Assembly (NCBI RefSeq): GCF_016907475.1
Contig: NZ_JAFBCA010000001.1
Location: forward strand, 1,612,001 to 1,676,000
Length of the DNA: 64,000 bases
Source of the DNA: Nocardioides cavernae
Lineage (GTDB): Bacteria > Actinomycetota > Actinomycetes > Propionibacteriales > Nocardioidaceae
Direction of reading: 5' to 3'
Part shown: piece by piece, positions 46,600-56,566 of the stretch
Position numbering within the stretch: position 1 is the first letter of the stretch
How the letters are laid out: each line of letters opens with the position of its first letter
Position numbers and translations under genes: made by a program
The notes under the pieces: generated by a model
Database searches by the model: none
Told to the model about the DNA's origin: nothing
Seen by the model: only the letters and a program-made list of their open reading frames with translations

Positions 46600-46710
46600 T
46601 CACTCCTCCTGTGCGGCCGCCCCGTGCGGCCCGTCACCACTCTGACGGACGAGCAGGGTCCGGATCGACACCCCCGCAGCGGTGATCGCGAACGTGCCGA
46701 CCACGCTCAC
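46600..46710 (-). CDS. Possible 36-codon ORF coupled to the BTAD regulator
   Basis: GTG 46710 overlaps the stop of the large regulator gene (GTGA), and its TGA ends one base before the YCII gene ATG. The product has a hydrophobic start (VSVVGTFAITAAGVSIRTLL) and an acidic tail (AAAQEE). Coupling at both ends argues for translation; codon third positions are GC-rich. No homologue is recognised. Confidence 0.35.
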   Translation of the reverse strand: MSVVGTFAITAAGVSIRTLLVRQSGDGPHGAAAQEE

Positions 46711-49700
46711 ACGTTGATCCTGTGAGAGTCCTGCAGACGCGCGATGAAGTCTGCGGCCTGGCTCTCGAACAGGTGGACCTCGCGCGCACGTGCGAGCGAT
46801 CGCGCTTCCTCGGCCGCCATCCGCACGCGGGACGTCGACGTGCCGGTGGCATGCATCAACCGAGCCTGCATGAGCCGGACGAAGCCCTCGGCGTAGCGCT
46901 GGCCGTAGGTGTCGATGGAGTCGAAGGCCCGGTCGAGGGCGTCCTCCGCGACGGCGGGGCGACCGCACACCAGGTACATCTCGGCAAGCAGGGCCAACCA
47001 GGTGGTGAGTCCGGACCGCGTGGGTTCGCGCAGGTGGGCGTCGATGAGGGCCTCGGCCTCGGCCGTCGCCTGCTCGGCATCCTGGCCCGTCAGGGCGCGG
47101 CTCCAGCACCTGCCGAGCCGCTGGTAGGCGCCGAGGAAGACGTAGGCGTGCTCCGGGTCTGCGGCGATGCCCCGGTCGGCCGCCCGCGCGGCCCAGTGCG
47201 TGTCGGACACCAGGGCCGCGGCGGTGACGGCGAACGACGACCACACCGTGACGTCGTAGGAGTGGTCTCCGGCATCCGCCTCGATCGACCCGAAGAGCGC
47301 GCGTCCCTCCGTGACCTTCCCGTGCAGCACGGTGTTGAGCGCCAGCATGGCCGGGGACAGGAGCTGGAGGTCGTGCCGCAGCGGCTCGTCGTCGTCCCAC
47401 GAGCGCGATCGCGTGCGCACGACCGCGTTGGACTCGCTCAGGAAGCGGTACGCGTCACCCACGTTGCCCACGTCCCACTGGTGGATGCCCCATGCGTGCC
47501 GTCCGTACGCCTGGACCACGGGGTCCTCGGACCGCTCGCCCTCGACGAGGAGCCGCCGCGCCAGGTCGCCGCTGCGGTCGAGCTGGATCGCCTGGGAGTG
47601 GGCAGCCCAGTGGGTGAAGAGGAAGTCGGCGGCCGCGCGCTCACGACCGAGCGCGCGGGCGACCGTCTCGGCGCGCTCGAGGAGGGCCGAGGTCGAGTCC
47701 GCGTCTCCCATGTACCCGGACTGCATGCCGATCACCGCGACGAGCTGCGACAGTGCCGACAGCTCGAGCTCGAGCAGCCCGGCCTCCCGGCTGATGGCTG
47801 CGGCGCCCTGGAGGTGAGTGGCGGCGGAGTCGAACGCCGATCGCGAGATGGCCCGGCGGCCGGCGCGGAGCAGCGCGGTGGTGGTGCGCTCGGCGTCCGC
47901 GAGCGGTCCGGCCAACCTGAGGTGATGGGCCAGCCGCTCGTCGTCGGACTCGTCCCGCGAGGGCGCGGTCTCCAGCGCACCTGCGATCTGCAGGTGGAAG
48001 CGCCCCAGCTCGACCGGTGAGGTGGACTGGATGACCGACTCGCGCACCAGGTCGTGGGCGAAGGCCAGGTTGAACGGCGTGCCGTTGGTCGTGAGCAGCG
48101 CCAGGGCGTCCGCGGGATCGAGCAACGCGATGCACGCCTCGACGTCCAGTCCCGACGCCCGGGCCAGGAGGCGCAGGTCGACCTCCCGGCCCATCAGGGC
48201 GGCGCGCTGGATCACCACTTGCGTGACCTCATCGAGGGTGCTCATCCGGTCACGCACGATGTCCCGCACGGTCGACGGGACGCCGCGATCGGCCTCACCG
48301 GCGTGTGCGCGGTTGCCGTCGGCCATCAGACGGGCGAGCTCGCGTACGAAGAACGGGTTGCCCTCCGTGCGTGCCTGGATGCTGCGGGCGATCGCCGCAG
48401 TGGGTGCGCGGCCCGTCTCCCGTCGGACGAGCTCTGCCACCTCCGCCGGCTGCAGCGGGCCGAGGTGGATCCGCTGGTGGTGGGCGAGCCGGCCCACGGC
48501 TGCCAGCGTGCGGCTCAGGTCGACTCCGGGGCGGGGTGCTCGATCACGCAGGATGCCCACGAGCAGCACGCGCGAAGGTTGCTGCGAGGCGACGTGCTTG
48601 AACATCTGCAAGGACGCGAGGTCGGCCCACTGCATGTCGTCGAGGACGAGCACGAGGGGACGCCCGGCAGACGCGCGTGCCACGAGGGAGACGGCCTGCT
48701 CGAACAGCCGGAACTGTGCTCCGCTGTCCGGCAGGACCGCGCCGCCCAGCACGCTGTCGTCGCCGGGTTCGAGCAGGCGCCCCAGCTCGCCCACGCCCGC
48801 CGCGGCCTGCACGTCGGGGGGCTGGTCGCGGCGCAGCTCGGTCAGGACCTGCGTCCACGGCCACAGTGCGGGGATGCCTTCATGGCTCAGGCAGCGCCCC
48901 CACGCCACGGTGGCGCCGTGCTGGGACGCCGCCTTGCCGAGCTCCTCGAGCAGCGAGGTCTTGCCTGCGCCCGGCTCTCCCTCCACGAGGACCAGAGACG
49001 CGTGCGCATCGATCGCCCGATCGAGGGACTGCATCAGCGTCCCGAGCTCCTCGGCGCGGCCCACGAGGCTGCTTGGGCCCGCTCCGTCGGCGTCGGACGG
49101 CGACCGCGGGTGTGGAGGAGTCGGGCCGACCGCCGTCGACGTCGAGGACGAGCGACTCGCCGTCCCCGCCGAGTCGGCAGCCTCTCCGAGGGCACGGGCG
49201 TGCGCGGCACGCAGGTCGTGACCCGGGGAGACGCCCAGCTCCTCGACGAGCCGGGTGCGGACGCCGTCCAGGACCGAGAGCGCCTCTGCCTGTCGGCCCG
49301 ACGCGGCGAGTGCGTCGACGAGGCTGGCTTGCACGGGTTCGTGCAGCGGTGCCATCCAGGCAGCAAGCCGAAGTGGCTGCACCACCCGTTCGGAGTGCCC
49401 CTGCGTCCGGGCGAGTGCAGCCGCCGAGACGCACGCGTCGAAGAACTCGTTGTCGAGGCCGGCGAACAGCGGCACCGCGGTCCTGCTGTGGGTGAGTCCG
49501 TCCCCGGCGGGTCCGTGCCACAGCGCGAGCGCACGGGCGTAGTCGTCCGAGGCGTCGTCCGGGCGGCCGGACGCCACGTGACGGCGCGCGCCCTCCACGT
49601 GGAGTCGGAAGTCGACCAGGTCCACGGCGCCGGGGACCGCGGACAGGATGTAACCGCCACCGCGGCGCTGGACGAAGGCCCCGGACTCGCGTACCGCGAG

Positions 49701-49967
49701 CGCCGGCTCCAGCACGCGCCGGATGGCGCCGACATACTTCTGCAGGATGTTGATGGCCGACCTCGGGACGTCGTCGTCCCACAGCAGGTCGATGAGCTCC
49801 GACACGCTCGTTGGCCTGCCGACCCGCGCGAGCAACAGCGCGAGCAGGTACTCCTGCTGGCGCGGCCCGAGGGCCAGCTCCGTGTCGTCACGCCAGACTC
49901 GCAGCGGGCCGAGGACCTGAAGGCGGACCTGGCCGGGCTCGTCTGCGTGCGTGCTGAACACGAGCAT
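46707..49967 (-). CDS. Large AfsR/SARP-like regulator (winged helix + BTAD + AAA ATPase + TPR-like)
   Basis: 1086 residues. N-terminal OmpR-like DNA-binding domain (VRLQVLGPLRVWRDDTELAL ... LIDLLWDDDVPRSAINILQK), BTAD helices (residues about 105-255), a linker, then an ATPase domain with Walker A LVEGEPGAGKTSLLEEL (about 330) and Walker B LVLVLDDMQWADLASLQ. The C-terminal 500 residues are alpha-helical repeats. No C-terminal LuxR helix-turn-helix is visible. It is divergent from the hydrolase/MFS/serine-repeat operon, its likely target. ATG 49967 has GAGGA upstream; the frame continues far upstream but there it is antisense to real genes. Confidence 0.88.
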   Translation of the reverse strand: MLVFSTHADEPGQVRLQVLGPLRVWRDDTELALGPRQQEYLLALLLARVGRPTSVSELIDLLWDDDVPRSAINILQKYVGAIRRVLEPALAVRESGAFVQRRGGGYILSAVPGAVDLVDFRLHVEGARRHVASGRPDDASDDYARALALWHGPAGDGLTHSRTAVPLFAGLDNEFFDACVSAAALARTQGHSERVVQPLRLAAWMAPLHEPVQASLVDALAASGRQAEALSVLDGVRTRLVEELGVSPGHDLRAAHARALGEAADSAGTASRSSSTSTAVGPTPPHPRSPSDADGAGPSSLVGRAEELGTLMQSLDRAIDAHASLVLVEGEPGAGKTSLLEELGKAASQHGATVAWGRCLSHEGIPALWPWTQVLTELRRDQPPDVQAAAGVGELGRLLEPGDDSVLGGAVLPDSGAQFRLFEQAVSLVARASAGRPLVLVLDDMQWADLASLQMFKHVASQQPSRVLLVGILRDRAPRPGVDLSRTLAAVGRLAHHQRIHLGPLQPAEVAELVRRETGRAPTAAIARSIQARTEGNPFFVRELARLMADGNRAHAGEADRGVPSTVRDIVRDRMSTLDEVTQVVIQRAALMGREVDLRLLARASGLDVEACIALLDPADALALLTTNGTPFNLAFAHDLVRESVIQSTSPVELGRFHLQIAGALETAPSRDESDDERLAHHLRLAGPLADAERTTTALLRAGRRAISRSAFDSAATHLQGAAAISREAGLLELELSALSQLVAVIGMQSGYMGDADSTSALLERAETVARALGRERAAADFLFTHWAAHSQAIQLDRSGDLARRLLVEGERSEDPVVQAYGRHAWGIHQWDVGNVGDAYRFLSESNAVVRTRSRSWDDDEPLRHDLQLLSPAMLALNTVLHGKVTEGRALFGSIEADAGDHSYDVTVWSSFAVTAAALVSDTHWAARAADRGIAADPEHAYVFLGAYQRLGRCWSRALTGQDAEQATAEAEALIDAHLREPTRSGLTTWLALLAEMYLVCGRPAVAEDALDRAFDSIDTYGQRYAEGFVRLMQARLMHATGTSTSRVRMAAEEARSLARAREVHLFESQAADFIARLQDSHRINV

Positions 49968-50165
49968 CCCGTCCTCGAGCGCTGACCGAAGGGTGATGCG
50001 GGAATCGTAGGCGAGGCGCACCCCGCCCGACCACGGTCGCGGGCCGGCCGACGAACGCTCGCGCGACTGGATTTCGGCTGAACGCCGTCCCCTTCGCCGT
50101 GCACGGATCGTCCACAACTCGTTGGTGAGGTGGGCTTCCCGCAGTCCCGACCCGGAAGGCCACCC

Positions 50166-50864
50166 ATGTCGCAACCCACTGTCGTCCTGGTCCACGGCGC
50201 CTTCGCCGACGCCTCGAGCTACGGTCCCGTCATCCGCCAGCTGCTGGGCGAGGGGATCAGGGTGCTCGCGCCCGCGGTGCCGAACCGTGGCCTCAACGAC
50301 GACGCGGCAGCGGTCTCGGCGGTCCTCGCGACCGTCGAGAGCCCGGTCGTGCTCGTCGGCCACTCCTACGGGTGCGCCGTGGCGACCGTCGCCGGCATCG
50401 CGGACAACGTGAAGAGCCTCGTCTACCTCGCAGGCTTCGTGCCCGACGCGGGGGAGGCCCTGGGTGAGCTGCAGGACCGCTTCGCACCGTCGGACCTGGC
50501 GACGGCACTGGTCCCGACGCCGATCGCCGGCGGCGTCGACCTCACGGTCGACGTCGAGAAGTTCCCCGCGGTGTTCGCCGCCGACGTCGACGCCTCGACC
50601 GCTGCGGTCCTGGCCGTGACCCAGCGGCCGCTGTCCGGAGCGGCGTTCGGCGACCCTGCTGGCGCCGCGGCGTGGAGGACCAAGCCGGCGTGGGGCGTCG
50701 TGGCCGCGCAGGACCACGCGATCAACCCCGATGTCCAGCGCTACGGCTACCAGCGAGCGGGTGTCTCGGCGATCGAGGTCGACAGCTCGCACCTCGTCAT
50801 GTTCGCCCAGCCGACGGTGGTCAGCGACCTGATCAGGAAGGCCGTCACCTCCGTCACCGAGTGA
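50166..50864 (+). CDS. Cytoplasmic alpha/beta hydrolase
   Basis: 232 residues. MSQPTVVLVHGAFADASSYG carries the HG oxyanion segment; the nucleophile elbow is VVLVGHSYGCAVA, the acid probably in AAQDHAINPD, and the catalytic His in VDSSHLVMFAQP. It resembles EstC-type esterases. GGAAGG lies upstream of ATG 50166. It is followed by an exported paralogue. Confidence 0.87.
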   Translation: MSQPTVVLVHGAFADASSYGPVIRQLLGEGIRVLAPAVPNRGLNDDAAAVSAVLATVESPVVLVGHSYGCAVATVAGIADNVKSLVYLAGFVPDAGEALGELQDRFAPSDLATALVPTPIAGGVDLTVDVEKFPAVFAADVDASTAAVLAVTQRPLSGAAFGDPAGAAAWRTKPAWGVVAAQDHAINPDVQRYGYQRAGVSAIEVDSSHLVMFAQPTVVSDLIRKAVTSVTE

Positions 50865-50942
50865 CGCGGGCCCAGGGCGCGGTTCCACAGTGCAGTGGAG
50901 CCCGCCGGGACTGCCCCCACCATCCCACCCAAGGAGACACCC

Positions 50943-51797
50943 ATGTTCCGCTCCAGCCGCCGGCTCCTCGCTGCGCTCGGCACCATCCTGGTGGCCGTCC
51001 TCGCCGCCACGCTCCTCACGTCCACCTCGCAGGCTGGGGCACCGTCGGCCTGGCCACCCCGGGTGGCCCACCCGGATCCGGGATCCGGACGGCCGACTGT
51101 GGTGATGGTCCACGGCGCCTGGGCTGACTCGTCGGGCTGGTACGAGTCCGCCGAGATCCTGCGCTCGCGCGGGCTCGACGTCATCGCACTGGCCAACCCG
51201 CTGCGCGGACTGGCCTCCGACACGGCGTACGTCCGCAGCGCACTGGAGACCATCGAGGGCCCTGTCGTCGTCGTGGCCCACTCCTACGGCGGTGCGGTCG
51301 TCACCGGCGCGGCCACGGGCCTGCCCAACGTCAAGGCACTGGTGTACGTCGCCGCCTTCGTGCCGGACGAGGGTGAGCCGGTCGGTGCCCTCAACGAGCT
51401 GAACCCGGGCAGCCTGATCAACGAGCAGGCACTCATCGTCCGACCGTTCTCGACCGGCACGGGGGGAGGGGCCGACCTGTACATCCGTCCCGAGATCTTC
51501 CGCGAGGCGTTCGCGGCCGACCTCCCGGCACGCACGGCCCGCCTCATGCAGATGACCCAACGTCCCCTGTCGGCGGCGGCGCTGGGTGAGCCGTCGGGCA
51601 CGCCGGCGTGGCGGACCATCCCGTCGTGGTACCTCCTGGCCACGCAGGACCGGACCATCCCGCCCGCCACCCAGCAGTTCATGGCGGCGCGCGCGGGGTC
51701 GACGATCGTCAGGGTGCGGTCGTCCCACGTGGCGATGCAGTCCCACCCGGAGTCGACGGCGGCCCTCGTCCTGGCCGCCGCGCGGACCGTCCGGTGA
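50943..51797 (+). CDS. Exported alpha/beta hydrolase, paralogue of the preceding gene
   Basis: 284 residues with an N-terminal signal (RRLLAALGTILVAVLAATLL). The mature part parallels the upstream gene throughout: VVMVHGAWADSSGWYES, VVVVAHSYGGAVVTGAA and VRSSHVAMQSHPE. AAGGAG lies upstream of ATG 50943. A tandem duplication with acquisition or loss of the signal peptide is inferred. Substrate unknown. Confidence 0.87.
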   Translation: MFRSSRRLLAALGTILVAVLAATLLTSTSQAGAPSAWPPRVAHPDPGSGRPTVVMVHGAWADSSGWYESAEILRSRGLDVIALANPLRGLASDTAYVRSALETIEGPVVVVAHSYGGAVVTGAATGLPNVKALVYVAAFVPDEGEPVGALNELNPGSLINEQALIVRPFSTGTGGGADLYIRPEIFREAFAADLPARTARLMQMTQRPLSAAALGEPSGTPAWRTIPSWYLLATQDRTIPPATQQFMAARAGSTIVRVRSSHVAMQSHPESTAALVLAAARTVR

Positions 51798-51824
51798 GGC
51801 GGGGCGAGTCGGGAGGAGGCCCGG

Positions 51825-53075
51825 ATGCACGAGCACGCCTACAAGGCCCAGTGTGACCTGGAGGAGAGGCGGCACCAGGCGCAGGCAGCCGAGCGGAGGG
51901 TCGCGCTGACGCTGTTCGCGCTCGCGCTCGGCACCTTCGCCATCGGGACCGGTGAGTTCGGCAGCAACGGGGTCGTCCAGCTGATCGCGACCGACCTGGA
52001 CGTGTCGGTGCCGACGGCCACCAACGCGGTGACGGCGTACGCACTGGGTGTCGTCGTCGGTTCTCCGGTCCTGACGATCGTCGCCGCGCGCCTCAACCGC
52101 CGCACACTGCTGCTGTTCCTCGTCGGCCTGTTCCTCGTCGGCAACATCCTCTCGGCGCTGGCCTCCGACCTCGGCCTGCTGGCGATCGCCCGGTTCGTCA
52201 CCGGCACCGTGCAGGGTGCGTACTTCGGTGCCGGGGCAGTGGTCGCGGCGTACGCCTACGGTCCGGGCAAGGGTGGCAAGGCGTTCGCGACGGTGATGGC
52301 CGGTCTCACCGTGGCGACGATCTTCGGTTCGCCCCTCGGGACCTTCATCGGCCAGCGGGTCGGGTGGCAGGCCCTCTACCTCGTGGTCGCCGCCACGGGC
52401 CTCGTGGCCGGTGTCGCGATCTGGTTCTTCGTCCCCCGTACCCCCGCCCTCGACGGAGGCTCGGTGACGACCGAGCTCGGTGCGCTGCGCCGGCCGATGG
52501 TGTGGGTGACCACGGCCATCGCCGCCCTCGGGATCTCGAGCATCTTCGCCGTCTACACCTTCATCGGGCCGTACATCACCGATGCGGTGGGGGCTGACGA
52601 GTCGTGGATCCCGGTCGCACTCGCCGTGTTCGGCCTCGGGATGGCGGTCGGAAACTGGGTCGGCGGACGGCTGGCCGACCAGTACGAGCACCGGGGCCTG
52701 GTGACGGGGTACGCCGGGGTGCTGGTGTTCCTCGTCGTCATCGGGCTGCGCGGCGACCAGCTGGCGGTCCTGCTTCCGTGTCTGTTCGGGGTGGGGGCGA
52801 CCACCATGATGGCCATCCCCACCATCCAGGTGCTCCTGACGAGGTACGCGCCCGAGGCTCCGACGCTGATGGGTGCCGTCAACCTCGCCGCCCTCAACCT
52901 GGCCAACGCGCTCGGCGCAGTGGGGGGCGCCCTGGCGCTGGGCGCCGGATGGGGCACGCTCTCGACGGCGTGGGCGGGACTCGCGTTGACAGCCGCGGGC
53001 CTGCTCCTCTTCGCCGTCACCGTCCCGCGAGCGGCGCCTCCTGCGATGACCGAGCCCACGCCGGCCGTGGCCTGA
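51825..53075 (+). CDS. MFS transporter (DHA1/AraJ-like)
   Basis: 416 residues with 12 hydrophobic helices after a 25-residue charged start. Helix 1 reads LTLFALALGTFAIGTGEFG, motif A region is VVGSPVLTIVAARLNRRTLL, and helix 5 has FGSPLGTFIGQRVGW. Similar to chloramphenicol/arabinose-type exporters. GGGAGGAGG precedes ATG 51825. The stop is 13 bases before the serine-repeat gene, so both are probably in one operon. Confidence 0.88.
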   Translation: MHEHAYKAQCDLEERRHQAQAAERRVALTLFALALGTFAIGTGEFGSNGVVQLIATDLDVSVPTATNAVTAYALGVVVGSPVLTIVAARLNRRTLLLFLVGLFLVGNILSALASDLGLLAIARFVTGTVQGAYFGAGAVVAAYAYGPGKGGKAFATVMAGLTVATIFGSPLGTFIGQRVGWQALYLVVAATGLVAGVAIWFFVPRTPALDGGSVTTELGALRRPMVWVTTAIAALGISSIFAVYTFIGPYITDAVGADESWIPVALAVFGLGMAVGNWVGGRLADQYEHRGLVTGYAGVLVFLVVIGLRGDQLAVLLPCLFGVGATTMMAIPTIQVLLTRYAPEAPTLMGAVNLAALNLANALGAVGGALALGAGWGTLSTAWAGLALTAAGLLLFAVTVPRAAPPAMTEPTPAVA

Positions 53076-53088
53076 CGAGGTGGCGGCG

Positions 53089-53388
53089 ATGTTGTCGTTG
53101 CGCTCCCGCGGATCCTTCCTGTCCATCTGCTCCGACGGGTCGATCCTCTCCGTCGGGTCGATCGGGTCGGTGTGCTCGGTCGGCTCGATCGGGTCGGCGT
53201 TCTCGATCGGCTCGATCGGCTCGGTCCTGTCGGTGATGTCCATGCTCTCGAGCCAGAGCAACTGCTCGGTGCTCAGCCATCGCAGCAACTGCTCCATCCT
53301 CTGCCGGGTGAGCAGCAGCTCGATCCTGAGCCACCGGGCGACGCGCTCGATCCTCGGTCGCCCGGTCCCGAAGCGGCGCGCGAGGTGA
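53089..53388 (+). CDS. Serine-triplet (XXS)n repeat protein of unknown function
   Basis: 99 residues from ATG 53089, five bases after GAGGTGG. From the initiator Met the sequence divides into triplets with Ser in the third place: 27 of the first 29 triplets fit (MLS, LRS, RGS, FLS, ICS, DGS, ILS, VGS, IGS and so on). First positions are mostly Ile/Val/Leu, second mostly Gly, Leu or Cys. The last 12 residues are basic (ILGRPVPKRRAR). Codon third positions are almost all G or C, so it is coding. The stop overlaps the GTG of the flavoprotein gene. A beta-solenoid is possible. I cannot assign a family or function. Confidence 0.8.
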   Translation: MLSLRSRGSFLSICSDGSILSVGSIGSVCSVGSIGSAFSIGSIGSVLSVMSMLSSQSNCSVLSHRSNCSILCRVSSSSILSHRATRSILGRPVPKRRAR

Positions 53389-55052
53389 CCACCAACGTCG
53401 ACGGCGCTCCAGGTGCGAGTGGTGGGGAGCCGAGGCTCACAGCTGAGCAGTTCCAACGTCTGGCTTCCTACGGAGTGCGCAGGACGGTGCAGGCGGGCCA
53501 GGTCCTGTACGCCACGGGGGACAGCTCGTACGACCTGTTCCTGATCGAGTCCGCCGCGGTCGACGTGGTGCGTGAGGCGAGCGTCAGCGAACATGAGCAC
53601 GTCGTCTACACGCGGACCGCGGGCGACTTCATGGGTGAGCTCAGCATCCTCACCGGGCAGACGGTCTATGTCACGGCCAGGGTTCGGGAGCCGGGCCTGG
53701 TCGTGCAGATCGGGGCTCGTGCGTTCCGCACCTCACTCGCTGAGCAGGTCGACATCGCGGACGTGCTGATCGAGGCGTTCAGGCTGAGGCGTCGCATCAT
53801 GCTCGACTCGGCGGGCAGCGCGCTCGAGATCGTCGGTCGGCCGGACACGGCCAGCAATCGTGCGTTGCGGACCTACGCGGCGCGCCTGCAGCTCCCGCAC
53901 TCACCCTTCGACGCGGACTCGGTGGCCGGTCAGTCCCTCATGGCCGCCTACGGCCTTGTCGATGAGGACCTGCCCGCCGCTGTCCTGTTCGACCGCGTCC
54001 TGGTCAGGGCGACGCCCCAGGACGTGGCCCGGGCCGTCGGGCTCACCTTCGAGCCGTCGGACCGCGACGTCGACCTCGTCGTGGTCGGCGCGGGGCCGGC
54101 TGGGCTCGCCGCGGCCGTGTACGGCGCGTCGGAGGGTCTGGTCACCGTGCTGCTGGATGCCCAGGGTCCCGGTGGCCAGGCCGCGACCACGTCGCGCATC
54201 GAGAACTACCTGGGGTTCCCCGGCGGGATCAGCGGCGACGACCTGACGCGGCTGGCGTTGGTGCAGGCGTTGAAGTTCGGCGCGCAGGTCTACGCGCCTT
54301 GCCATGTCGTGGGCCTGCGCGGCGAGCCGAGGGGCCCGGTCCTGAGCCTCGCGGACGGCAGCGAGGTGCGCGCTCGCGCCGTCATCGTCGCCACCGGCGC
54401 GCGCTACCGGCGCCTCGCCGTGGCGCGCTGGGACGAGTTCGAGCGGCGAGGGGCCATCCGGTACTCAGCGACCGAGCTCGACGTGGCGGGCTGCGAGTCC
54501 AGTCCCGTCACGGTCGTCGGTGGTGCCAACTCAGCGGGCCAGGCAGCGCTGTTCCTGGCCTCACGGGGATGCCGCGTCGATGTCCTCGTGCGCGGGGACC
54601 GCATCGCGAAGTCGATGTCCAGCTATCTGGTCGACCGTCTGGAGGCCCACTCCATGGTGACTGTCTGGACGAACGCCCATCTCCTGGAGCTGTGCGGCGA
54701 GGAGGACCTCGACGGGGTGGTCATCAGGGCCGACGGCGGCGCCTTGTTGGTGCGCGACTCCCGGGCGCTCTTCTGCTTCATCGGTGCCGAACCCGACACC
54801 GCCTGGATGAACGGGGTGACCCGTGACGGAGACGGCTTCGTCATGACGGACGTCGCCCTGGCCGCGGCCGATGCCGCGGACCCCGGCATGGCCCTCCTGC
54901 CCTACCAGACGAGCCTGCCTGGGGTGTTCGCCGCCGGCGACGTCCGGGCGGGCTCGATGAAACGTGTGGCCTCCGCCGTGGGCGAGGGAGCCAGCGCGGT
55001 GGCCTCCGTGCATCGCACGCTGGGCAGGTCCCGAGACCTCCCGACCCACTGA
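53385..55052 (+). CDS. cNMP-binding-like domain fused to a thioredoxin-reductase-like flavoprotein without CxxC
   Basis: 555 residues from GTG 53385, coupled to the previous stop. Residues about 20-140 match a cyclic-nucleotide-binding fold (QAGQVLYATGDSSYDLFLIE; GDFMGELSILTGQTVYVTAR), but the Arg of the phosphate cassette is not evident. From about 220 comes a two-dinucleotide flavoprotein: FAD motif LVVVGAGPAGLAAAVYGAS, GQAATTSRIENYLGFPGG, NADPH motif VVGGANSAGQAALFLA, and C-terminal GVFAAGDVRAGSMKRVASAV. The position of CATC in thioredoxin reductase is occupied by YSATELDVAG, so the disulfide is absent. NAD(P)H-dependent reduction of an unknown partner is inferred. Confidence 0.88.
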   Translation: MTTNVDGAPGASGGEPRLTAEQFQRLASYGVRRTVQAGQVLYATGDSSYDLFLIESAAVDVVREASVSEHEHVVYTRTAGDFMGELSILTGQTVYVTARVREPGLVVQIGARAFRTSLAEQVDIADVLIEAFRLRRRIMLDSAGSALEIVGRPDTASNRALRTYAARLQLPHSPFDADSVAGQSLMAAYGLVDEDLPAAVLFDRVLVRATPQDVARAVGLTFEPSDRDVDLVVVGAGPAGLAAAVYGASEGLVTVLLDAQGPGGQAATTSRIENYLGFPGGISGDDLTRLALVQALKFGAQVYAPCHVVGLRGEPRGPVLSLADGSEVRARAVIVATGARYRRLAVARWDEFERRGAIRYSATELDVAGCESSPVTVVGGANSAGQAALFLASRGCRVDVLVRGDRIAKSMSSYLVDRLEAHSMVTVWTNAHLLELCGEEDLDGVVIRADGGALLVRDSRALFCFIGAEPDTAWMNGVTRDGDGFVMTDVALAAADAADPGMALLPYQTSLPGVFAAGDVRAGSMKRVASAVGEGASAVASVHRTLGRSRDLPTH

Positions 55053-55062
55053 AGCGGACCGG

Positions 55063-55713
55063 TCAGGACGTCTCGGGGAACTTCACGCCGGTGTTGGCGT
55101 GGCAGCGGTAGCCGAAGGGGTTCTTCGCGAGGTACTGCTGGTGGGCGTCCTCGGCGTAGTAGTACGGCGTCTCGCCGGCGGGGCGGATCTCGGTGGTGAT
55201 CTCGCCGAGGCCGCGGCGGGCGAGCTCCTCCCCGTACACCTTGGTCAGCTCGCGGGCGGTCTGCTCCTGCTCGGGCGTGGTCCAGTAGATCGCCGAGCGG
55301 TACTGGGTGCCGACGTCGTTGCCCTGGCGCATGCCCTGGGTCGGGTCGTGGATCTCGAAGAACCTCTTCAGCAGGTCGGCGTACGACACCTTCGCGGGGT
55401 CGAAGACGACGCGGATGGCCTCGGTGTGGCCGGTGTGCCCGCTGCACACCTCGTCGTACGTCGGGTTGGGGGTGCTGCCGCCGGCGTAGCCGACCGACGT
55501 CGACCAGACGCCGGGGAGCTGCCAGTAGACCTCCTCCGCGCCCCAGAAGCAGCCGAGGCCGAGGACGGCGACCTCGAGGCCGTCCGGCACGTCGTCGCTG
55601 ACGACGGGGGTGTGCAGGACCAGGTGCTCGCCCAGGGTCCACATCTGCTGCTCGCGCCCCGGGAGCGCCTGGTCGGGGGTGGGCAGGGTGGTGGGCTTGC
55701 CGAATCCGAACAT
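55063..55713 (-). CDS. msrA: Peptide methionine sulfoxide reductase MsrA
   Basis: 216 residues. The active-site motif is [19 protein letters not shown] with the catalytic Cys; [34 protein letters not shown] and the C-terminal [19 protein letters not shown] are typical. It reduces methionine-S-sulfoxide using thioredoxin or mycoredoxin-type donors. GACAAT followed by GGAGGC precedes ATG 55713, as before the ABC1-kinase gene. It is convergent with the flavoprotein gene. Confidence 0.95.
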
Positions 55714-55876
55714 GCCTCCATTGTCGCGCGCCGGGCAAGGGACGCGCCCGCGTCTCGCCGGGGGTGCGCGGCACCGGTGGAACTTCGCGGTCTAGACGTT
55801 CGCGCTCTGGCTGATGTGGGACCGCCACGGCGGGAGGACGGTGAAGCGATCAGCAACACCGTCGAAAGGAATCATC

Positions 55877-56566
55877 ATGTCTTCACGTCGAACGGGTCGG
55901 CAGCTCCTCATAGCCACCCTCGTGGGGGTCCTGGTGGGGGGTGGCCTCATGGTCCTCACCCCGGCCGGGGCCGAGGTCAGCAGCGCCGTGGCCACCAACT
56001 GGAAAAAGATCTGGAAGCAAGAGCTCCAGCCGCAGGCAGACAAGCGGTACTACACCAAGAAGAAGAGCGACAAGAGGTACTACACCAAGAGCAAGAGCAA
56101 CGAGAGGTACTACGCCAAGTGGGACTCCGACGCGAAGTACGCGCTCAAGGGTTCGTCGTACACGAAGGCCGAGTCCGACGGGAAGTACCTCCCGAAGCAG
56201 GCACTCATCCGGGGCCAGTACGCCGCCATCGGCACGGGGGCAATGGGTGCCCGGGTTGGCGACAACATCACCTTCGGCGTGACGCTGTCGGCAGCCCCAG
56301 GGGTCAACTACCTCAACGCCGGGGCTGCGCCGACCGCCAACTGCCCCGGGACCGCCGCCGCCCCGAACGCCGCCGCGGGCCAGCTGTGCCTCTACGAGGT
56401 GTCGAACACCAACGCAGCAGTGCGCACCATCGTCAACGCGGGCACCGGTGCCGCTGGAGCGAGCGTCTTCGGAGCGATCGTGCACGTGACCGGCACCGCC
56501 GCGGGGGAGACGGTCGTCTTCGGCACGTGGGCCCTTCGCCCGGCTGCCATCGTCAGCGCGCCGTGA
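55877..56566 (+). CDS. Exported protein with tail-fibre-like Tyr/Lys repeats
   Basis: 229 residues from ATG 55877 (AAGGA upstream). A signal or anchor segment (LLIATLVGVLVGGGLMVLTP) is followed by five to six degenerate repeats of about 10 residues: DKRYYTKKKS, DKRYYTKSKS, NERYYAKWDS, DAKYALKGSS, YTKAESDGKY. The same pattern occurs in phage tail-fibre shafts, which form triple-stranded rods. The C-terminal 120 residues are beta-rich and Ala/Gly/Thr-rich with two cysteines. Its role is unknown; a surface fibre is one possibility. Confidence 0.75.
   Translation: MSSRRTGRQLLIATLVGVLVGGGLMVLTPAGAEVSSAVATNWKKIWKQELQPQADKRYYTKKKSDKRYYTKSKSNERYYAKWDSDAKYALKGSSYTKAESDGKYLPKQALIRGQYAAIGTGAMGARVGDNITFGVTLSAAPGVNYLNAGAAPTANCPGTAAAPNAAAGQLCLYEVSNTNAAVRTIVNAGTGAAGASVFGAIVHVTGTAAGETVVFGTWALRPAAIVSAP

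Follow-up and report, generated by a model that had tools for sequence, protein, structure and literature searches.

The window analysed here is a 64,000-nucleotide stretch of the Nocardioides cavernae genome (contig NZ_JAFBCA010000001.1, positions 1,612,001 to 1,676,000), and at 53089..53388 on its forward strand lies a gene encoding a 99-residue (XXS)n nonapeptide-repeat protein that runs from ATG 53089 to TGA 53388, stop included. These are the coordinates and length given for the open reading frame in an earlier note on this DNA, and both were recovered unchanged. The ribosome site claimed there was located as GAGGT at 53077..53081 (+) in the sequence upstream of the gene, which also has an alternative in-frame GTG start at 53080. 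The stop codon of a gene for an MFS transporter (51825..53075, +), whose nearest named models, Cmx/CmrA and AraJ, both score below their cut-offs, is 13 bases from the repeat gene start. Downstream, the predicted GTGA overlap with the next gene is present (GTG 53385, TGA 53386-53388), and domain matches indicate that this gene (53385..55052, +) encodes a flavoprotein with a cyclic-nucleotide-binding domain and a thioredoxin-reductase-like FAD/NAD(P) domain, in which S-A-T-E stands where the aligned thioredoxin reductase has its C-x-x-C. In PADLOC, PycTIR effector models respond to the cyclic-nucleotide-binding part as well (E 2.7e-6). Domain matches additionally identify two alpha/beta hydrolases of the Abhydrolase_6 type upstream of the transporter gene (50130..50864 and 50895..51797, both +), the second of which has an apparent N-terminal signal sequence by eye, and a BTAD/AAA transcriptional regulator (46707..49967, -) that is divergent from the operon.

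Several other features were observed in the surrounding DNA. A gene resembling MsrA, a peptide methionine sulfoxide reductase, by eye (55063-55713, -) is convergent with the flavoprotein gene, and a gene of the same sequence cluster adjoins the flavoprotein gene in L169 as well. An open reading frame of 250 residues at 55814-56566 (+) contains short repeats of the YYTK/SD type (KRYYTKKKSDKRYYTKSKSNERYYAK...) and a hydrophobic segment near its N-terminus; by eye its repeats recall the stalk repeats of tail-fibre-like proteins. On the minus strand an open frame of 2297 residues (46707-53600) spans the whole cluster, and its downstream part, the portion scanned (46707-49967), matches known domains.

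A recount of the repeat protein agrees with the claim that serine occupies 27 of the first 29 third positions. Overall, serine is found at 27 of the 33 third positions, all 27 within triplets 1-29, and makes up 30 of the 99 residues, while in 200,000 trials of residue shuffling the best of the three frames never held more than 20 of 33. GC content by codon position is 0.43/0.61/0.96, so the third codon positions are GC-rich as had been noted. In each of 20 pairs of relatives, single changes read in the sense frame are more often synonymous than not; the pairs are not independent, several having a member in common. The serine codons of the window gene comprise 15 TCG, 7 TCC and 8 AGC, and 9 switches of codon class occur among 555 conserved serine pairs of relatives. 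The serine position is the best conserved, with identity of 514/532 there, 442/512 and 480/512 at the other two triplet positions, and 428/590 in the tail. The alternative view is that there is no gene here, only a repeat at the DNA level or the complement of a reading frame on the other strand. It draws on the long open antisense frame (46707-53600) and on the much synonymous change that one antisense frame also shows; in one pair of the 20, L024-L056, that frame has 21 synonymous changes and the sense frame 20. The antisense frame is rich in synonymous change because its third positions coincide with those of the sense frame, whereas the sense frame has the highest synonymous fraction in every one of the 20 pairs, serine is kept through both codon classes, and promoter-like elements occur at the sense start in relatives. 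We consequently give this view almost no credence. Judged by these patterns of substitution, the repeat gene is under protein-level selection, and the earlier opinion that it is a real gene holds, with sense coding supported and the periodicity conserved in many genomes.

Extent, neighbors and start-codon signals of the family

A single search returned 96 relatives at E<=1e-3, and a profile search retrieved at least 1041 database proteins at E<=1e-6. The periodicity of short (XXS)n proteins, which the earlier note had proposed to pursue with a profile, is thus conserved across many actinobacterial genomes. Within Nocardioides, the genus of the window, 30 of 147 sampled genomes match at E<=1e-20 and 46 at E<=1e-3, the matches weaker than E<=1e-20 being mostly short stretches that were not counted. 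Sampling of the class found matches at E<=1e-10 in 65 of 345 genomes, spread over 30 of 126 genera, and sampling of the phylum found matches in 16 of 346 genomes. There is nearly always one copy per genome, with two strong copies in G010 and G347. A scan of one genome per species confirmed at least 522 loci, and the best 80 of these, which were kept, are all Actinomycetota by title and include Nocardioides, Mumia, Terrabacter, Kribbella, Streptomyces, Kitasatospora, Acidimicrobiia and Solirubrobacteraceae; Streptomyces contributes 46 of the 80, which are not independent. Duplicate loci representing the same genomes (e.g. L004/L160, L005/L169 and L006/L164) were removed by sequence, leaving 113 distinct proteins of 121.

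The repeat proteins scanned met no model of Pfam, NCBIfam, PADLOC or PHROG, in keeping with the earlier note, which knew of no characterised family with the triplet rule. A Pfam scan of the window protein returned nothing even at E<=5, none of three repeat proteins matches PADLOC, and the best E value among PHROGs is 0.016. None of 56 candidates from viral contigs was confirmed as a family member, and BLAST with the low-complexity filter on gave no match in phage records and matches to two Streptomyces plasmids among plasmid records. Literature searches by repeat peptide strings and descriptive wording, covering titles and the beginnings of abstracts, returned nothing relevant to the family. 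Several apparent matches were rejected. Fusions with PF14124 and PF04237 among the profile matches (P0153, P0171) look like read-through into neighboring genes, and profile matches among solved structures, the best being a CDC27 chain at E 0.0011, were judged Gly/Ser-rich or chance. The gene after an FtsZ-like gene in L002 (1303-2073; in its own genome G000:C1:2502344-2502514) has a low-complexity (SVG)n insert, and its match to the repeat family was taken as false. We are dealing almost certainly with a real conserved family that is actinobacterial, undescribed, patchily distributed and usually single-copy.

Members of the window type, defined by the motif SNCS[IV]LS, occur in six distinct genomes with known context (the window, L160, L164, L167, L169 and L007). 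The MFS gene is near the repeat gene in five of the six and the flavoprotein adjoins it in three. The five genomes with the MFS gene nearby all belong to Nocardioides and include the three with the adjoining flavoprotein; they also have two hydrolase genes and a gene for a BTAD-type regulator in the neighborhood, in varying order. The window-type gene of Mumia (L007) lies outside such an operon. An MFS orthologue (E<=1e-100) is present in 5 of the 147 genus genomes, precisely these five, always with the repeat gene within about 2 kb. The MFS gene is a steadier partner of the window-type gene than is the flavoprotein. The five operons, in which MFS identity is 79-92%, are related by descent and L007 lies outside one, so this linkage may be inheritance. 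The flavoprotein is found in 14 of the 147 genomes at E<=1e-100; G008 and G038 carry copies, and G030 a second copy, that show 63-64% identity and lie outside the repeat-gene neighborhood. Conserved linkage to the flavoprotein, raised earlier as a sign of a system, did not generalize: a close relative adjoins the repeat gene in two of the 80 named loci (L005 and L006), which rules out the flavoprotein as an obligate partner, and one distant relative lies about 2 kb from the repeat gene in L075.

A partner common to all lineages was likewise ruled out by clustering the neighbors at 121 loci, where neighboring genes are approximate, having been called by a codon-score script, and taxon groups were assigned by hand from record titles. 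Among immediate neighbors, three clusters extend beyond a single taxon group, each covering two groups only, and 19 clusters do so within three genes on either side, the widest spanning three groups; the flavoprotein cluster spans two, the genus of the window and Herbiconiux. Synteny is otherwise lineage-specific, with miaB and a glutamate-type ABC cluster in some members of the genus and an EttA-like ABC ATPase near the repeat gene in some Streptomyces (all named by eye). In a second genus of the family (L184 and L185) the next gene, of about 230 residues, shares 4 bases with the repeat gene; its product in L184 has only weak matches, to families of the coiled-coil type.

Many members carry a promoter-like signature at the start codon. 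A -10-like hexamer, [TC]ANNNT, starts 11-14 nt before the start codon in 87 of 112 members, compared with 260 of 1286 control genes, and at 15-40 nt upstream it is rarer than in controls (19/112 versus 330/1286). These counts cover 112 distinct upstream regions with the window excluded, and the controls are genes from the same loci, whose starts are approximate because the genes were called by the codon-score script. The hexamer is present in 13 of 19 taxon groups, again assigned by hand, and in 21 of 34 named loci outside Streptomyces, and in only five of nine Nocardioides loci. The window copy and L004-L006 are without it, the window, L005 and L006 having a ribosome-site-like stretch in its place, which is consistent with uptake into an operon; the Mumia member L007, of window-type sequence, has the hexamer. 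No enrichment of stress sigma-factor promoters was detected upstream of the repeat genes. Given the position of the hexamer, most members look like self-standing leaderless genes, and leaderless expression of most of them is very probable.

The nine-residue unit and its uncharged core

The true repeat unit is nine residues, SxxSxxSxL, a super-period beyond the triplet rule of the earlier note. Among 113 distinct relatives the second residue after serine is identical to the residue three triplets later in 1269 of 2407 comparisons, where shuffling gives a fraction of 0.219 (z 37.7), while lags of 1, 2, 4, 5 and 7 triplets fall below expectation; for the first residue after serine a lag of two triplets is slightly above expectation. 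Members consist of some eight or more nonapeptides that follow the pattern S-[IV]-G-S-[VI]-G-S-[VA]-L, and the commonest residues in successive units are SLWSEDSVL, SIGSVGSVL, SIGSVGSVL, SIGSVGSAL, SVGSIGSAL, SAGSALSWL, STGSVLSAQ and SRWSVLSWR. Written as nonapeptides, the window protein has 11 units, of which the first nine hold 26 of 27 third-position serines, the tenth one of three and the last none. Units 1-6 read MLSLRSRGS FLSICSDGS ILSVGSIGS VCSVGSIGS AFSIGSIGS VLSVMSMLS and units 7-11 read SQSNCSVLS HRSNCSILC RVSSSSILS HRATRSILG RPVPKRRAR. Copy number in relatives seems to change by single nine-residue units, weak evidence because the anchor patterns share phase and the step is partly built in.

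The polarity of the units is uneven along the protein. In 301 of 307 proteins (2144 units; six were left out for a weak triplet score), D, E, K, R, H, N and Q together account for at most 4% at each of the nine positions of units 2-4, whereas position 5 is polar in 78% of cases in unit 0, and core positions that are uncharged in units 2-4 are often polar in the end units. The polarity pattern of the window protein delimits a 39-residue core free of these seven residues (residues 17-55; 53137..53253, +), followed by a polar and basic C-terminal part with units of the SNCSVLSHR type (53254..53385, +) that brings the net charge after the core to +9. This core would be the membrane-embedded or self-buried part of the protein. 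Across 112 proteins, L187 being dropped from the core, tryptophan and core-flanking charge statistics alone for an apparent frameshift, the uncharged core ranges from 22 to 64 residues with a median of 47. Tryptophan gathers at its ends, with 7 of 317 tryptophans in the first three quarters of the core, and basic residues likewise lie outside it, so that the ends are capped by tryptophan and charge. Net charge is positive before the core in 61 of 112 proteins and between the core and the C-terminal helix in 77 of 80; on either side of that helix the charge is nearly equal (means 1.9 and 2.05). Proline makes up 0.2% of the repeat residues and aspartate 1.3% (the latter in 113 proteins).

A hydrophobic C-terminal helix (Kyte-Doolittle >=1.3 over 17 residues) is present in 80 of the 113 distinct loci proteins and in 125 of 194 database relatives, and is absent from the window copy. 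An N-terminal hydrophobic segment was found in none of the 113 loci proteins, only six of which have room for one, and in 5 of the 194 database relatives; repeat-gene starts in the loci were placed at the nearest ATG or GTG, a choice that favors short N-termini and may miss N-terminal signals. A surface location accordingly finds no support in these proteins. Within the core the best 19-residue hydropathy window reaches at least 1.6 in 33 of 113 proteins and at least 1.3 in 111, and the peak of the window protein is 1.48. Two AlphaFold2 models contain no strand and are of low confidence (mean pLDDT 50 and 53), the C-terminal hydrophobic segment being the sole modelled stretch above pLDDT 70.

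Known repeat systems and rival explanations

Several known systems share part of this architecture. The His-Xaa-Ser repeat proteins (HxsA4, NCBIfam NF038313) also have serine at every third residue, and HxsA4 is the sole NCBIfam model that responds to the window protein (19.4 bits, E 0.0014); the best relative reaches E 9.5e-5 and the best score is 23.2 bits against a cut-off of 55. With this register, which yields such sub-threshold matches in five of five family members scanned, the repeat protein might have its serines modified in trans, in the manner of the His-Xaa-Ser repeat system or of peptides made on the ribosome and then modified. We consider such a role very unlikely, as the family has no histidine at the defining position and no modifying enzyme is common to the repeat-gene neighborhoods. 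Furthermore, the window genome has no match to HxsB (we take this to be model TIGR03978, labelled rSAM_paired_1) and one match to HxsC at 20.6 bits, far below the cut-off of 267.9, of a sub-cut-off kind also seen in 14 of 14 control genomes. A triplet repeat of a nucleophilic residue is also found in the Cys-Xaa-Xaa repeat bacteriocin, and bacteriocins of this sort are recognized through adjacent genes for maturation, immunity and export (PMC2674419), none of which is common to the repeat-gene neighborhoods.

The other comparisons concern the fold. The nine-residue unit is shared with the RTX repeats that form beta-rolls, which have a Gly/Asp-rich calcium-binding signature and type I export signals, both absent from this family. 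Collagen-like Gly-X-Y proteins and Gly-rich polyproline-II bundles, such as the snow flea antifreeze protein, have the same strict triplet period, but the small residue here is serine, there is almost no proline and a nine-residue period is superimposed. Left-handed beta-helix hexapeptide repeats also place aliphatic-Gly pairs in a short repeat, and differ from the family in period, which is 9 rather than 6 (a lag of three triplets, not two); neither they nor RTX repeats are matched in Pfam. The soluble triangular beta-solenoid proposed in the earlier note, or a two-sided one, could accommodate the nine-residue unit, as nine residues are half of the 18-residue coil of RTX beta-rolls and three-sided hexapeptide solenoids, and glycine often follows an aliphatic residue as in the hexapeptide repeats. 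Nevertheless, a soluble solenoid has outward positions whereas the central units have no polar-tolerant position, Pfam matches and a convincing solved relative are lacking, and the absence of strand from both models, uncertain as these are, gives the triangular form no support; we think a solenoid improbable. Somewhat less improbable, though still unlikely, is a self-assembling fibre or amyloid-like filament in the cytoplasm that excludes water, its core being buried by the stacking of copies instead of by lipid, and that most members would tether to the membrane. It would explain the triplet and nonapeptide periodicity, a core uncharged at all nine positions, window-type members without an anchor helix, and, for the little that it is worth given the shared anchor phase, the apparent variation by nine-residue steps. 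It fits poorly with tryptophan and basic residues that flank the core as in membrane proteins, with the C-terminal hydrophobic helix of 80 of the 113 members, and with models in which strands are absent, albeit at low confidence.

A putative membrane-embedded, serine-ribbed protein

The best overall explanation, to which we assign a probability of roughly 45%, is that these are membrane-embedded, self-associating serine-ribbed proteins. In this picture the bilayer would hold the uncharged core of 40-50 serine, glycine and aliphatic residues, which might form a hairpin, and the ends with their tryptophan and charge caps would rest at its cytoplasmic interface. A threefold helix making one turn per triplet would bring the serines onto one face, and this face may join copies by hydrogen bonds into homo-oligomers. 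Most members would add the C-terminal hydrophobic anchor, while the window copy, which has no anchor and sits in an operon with the MFS gene, two hydrolases and sometimes the cyclic-nucleotide-binding flavoprotein, may organize the membrane-bound transporter of that operon. The parts of this reading differ in strength. On composition and capping, membrane association of the repeat core seems about evenly poised: hydropathy is borderline, a content of one third serine is high for a membrane segment, the net charges before the core and beside the C-terminal helix favor no particular topology, and burial in a fibre or oligomer would give the same lack of charge. Self-association through the serines is a more tentative proposition, and a role with the transporter in the window subtype is doubtful. 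A fuller version of the membrane-embedded reading posits a new class of membrane protein with, in place of an alpha helix, a threefold-helix core (3-10 or polyproline-II-like) with one turn per triplet, separate serine, aliphatic and Gly/Leu faces, and packing by nine-residue steps into a serine-lined oligomer or pore, encoded mostly by leaderless stand-alone genes in Actinomycetota; taken whole, it is rather improbable.

Approximately a thousand database proteins thus obey a strict rule that none of the family libraries searched names, and neither of two AlphaFold2 runs gave a confident fold. The promoter-like signature at their start codons can be used at once to find members and express them. 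A core that lies in the membrane would make the family a sequence code for self-assembly there that differs from ordinary transmembrane helices, and a core that forms a fibre would make it a new natural repeat material.
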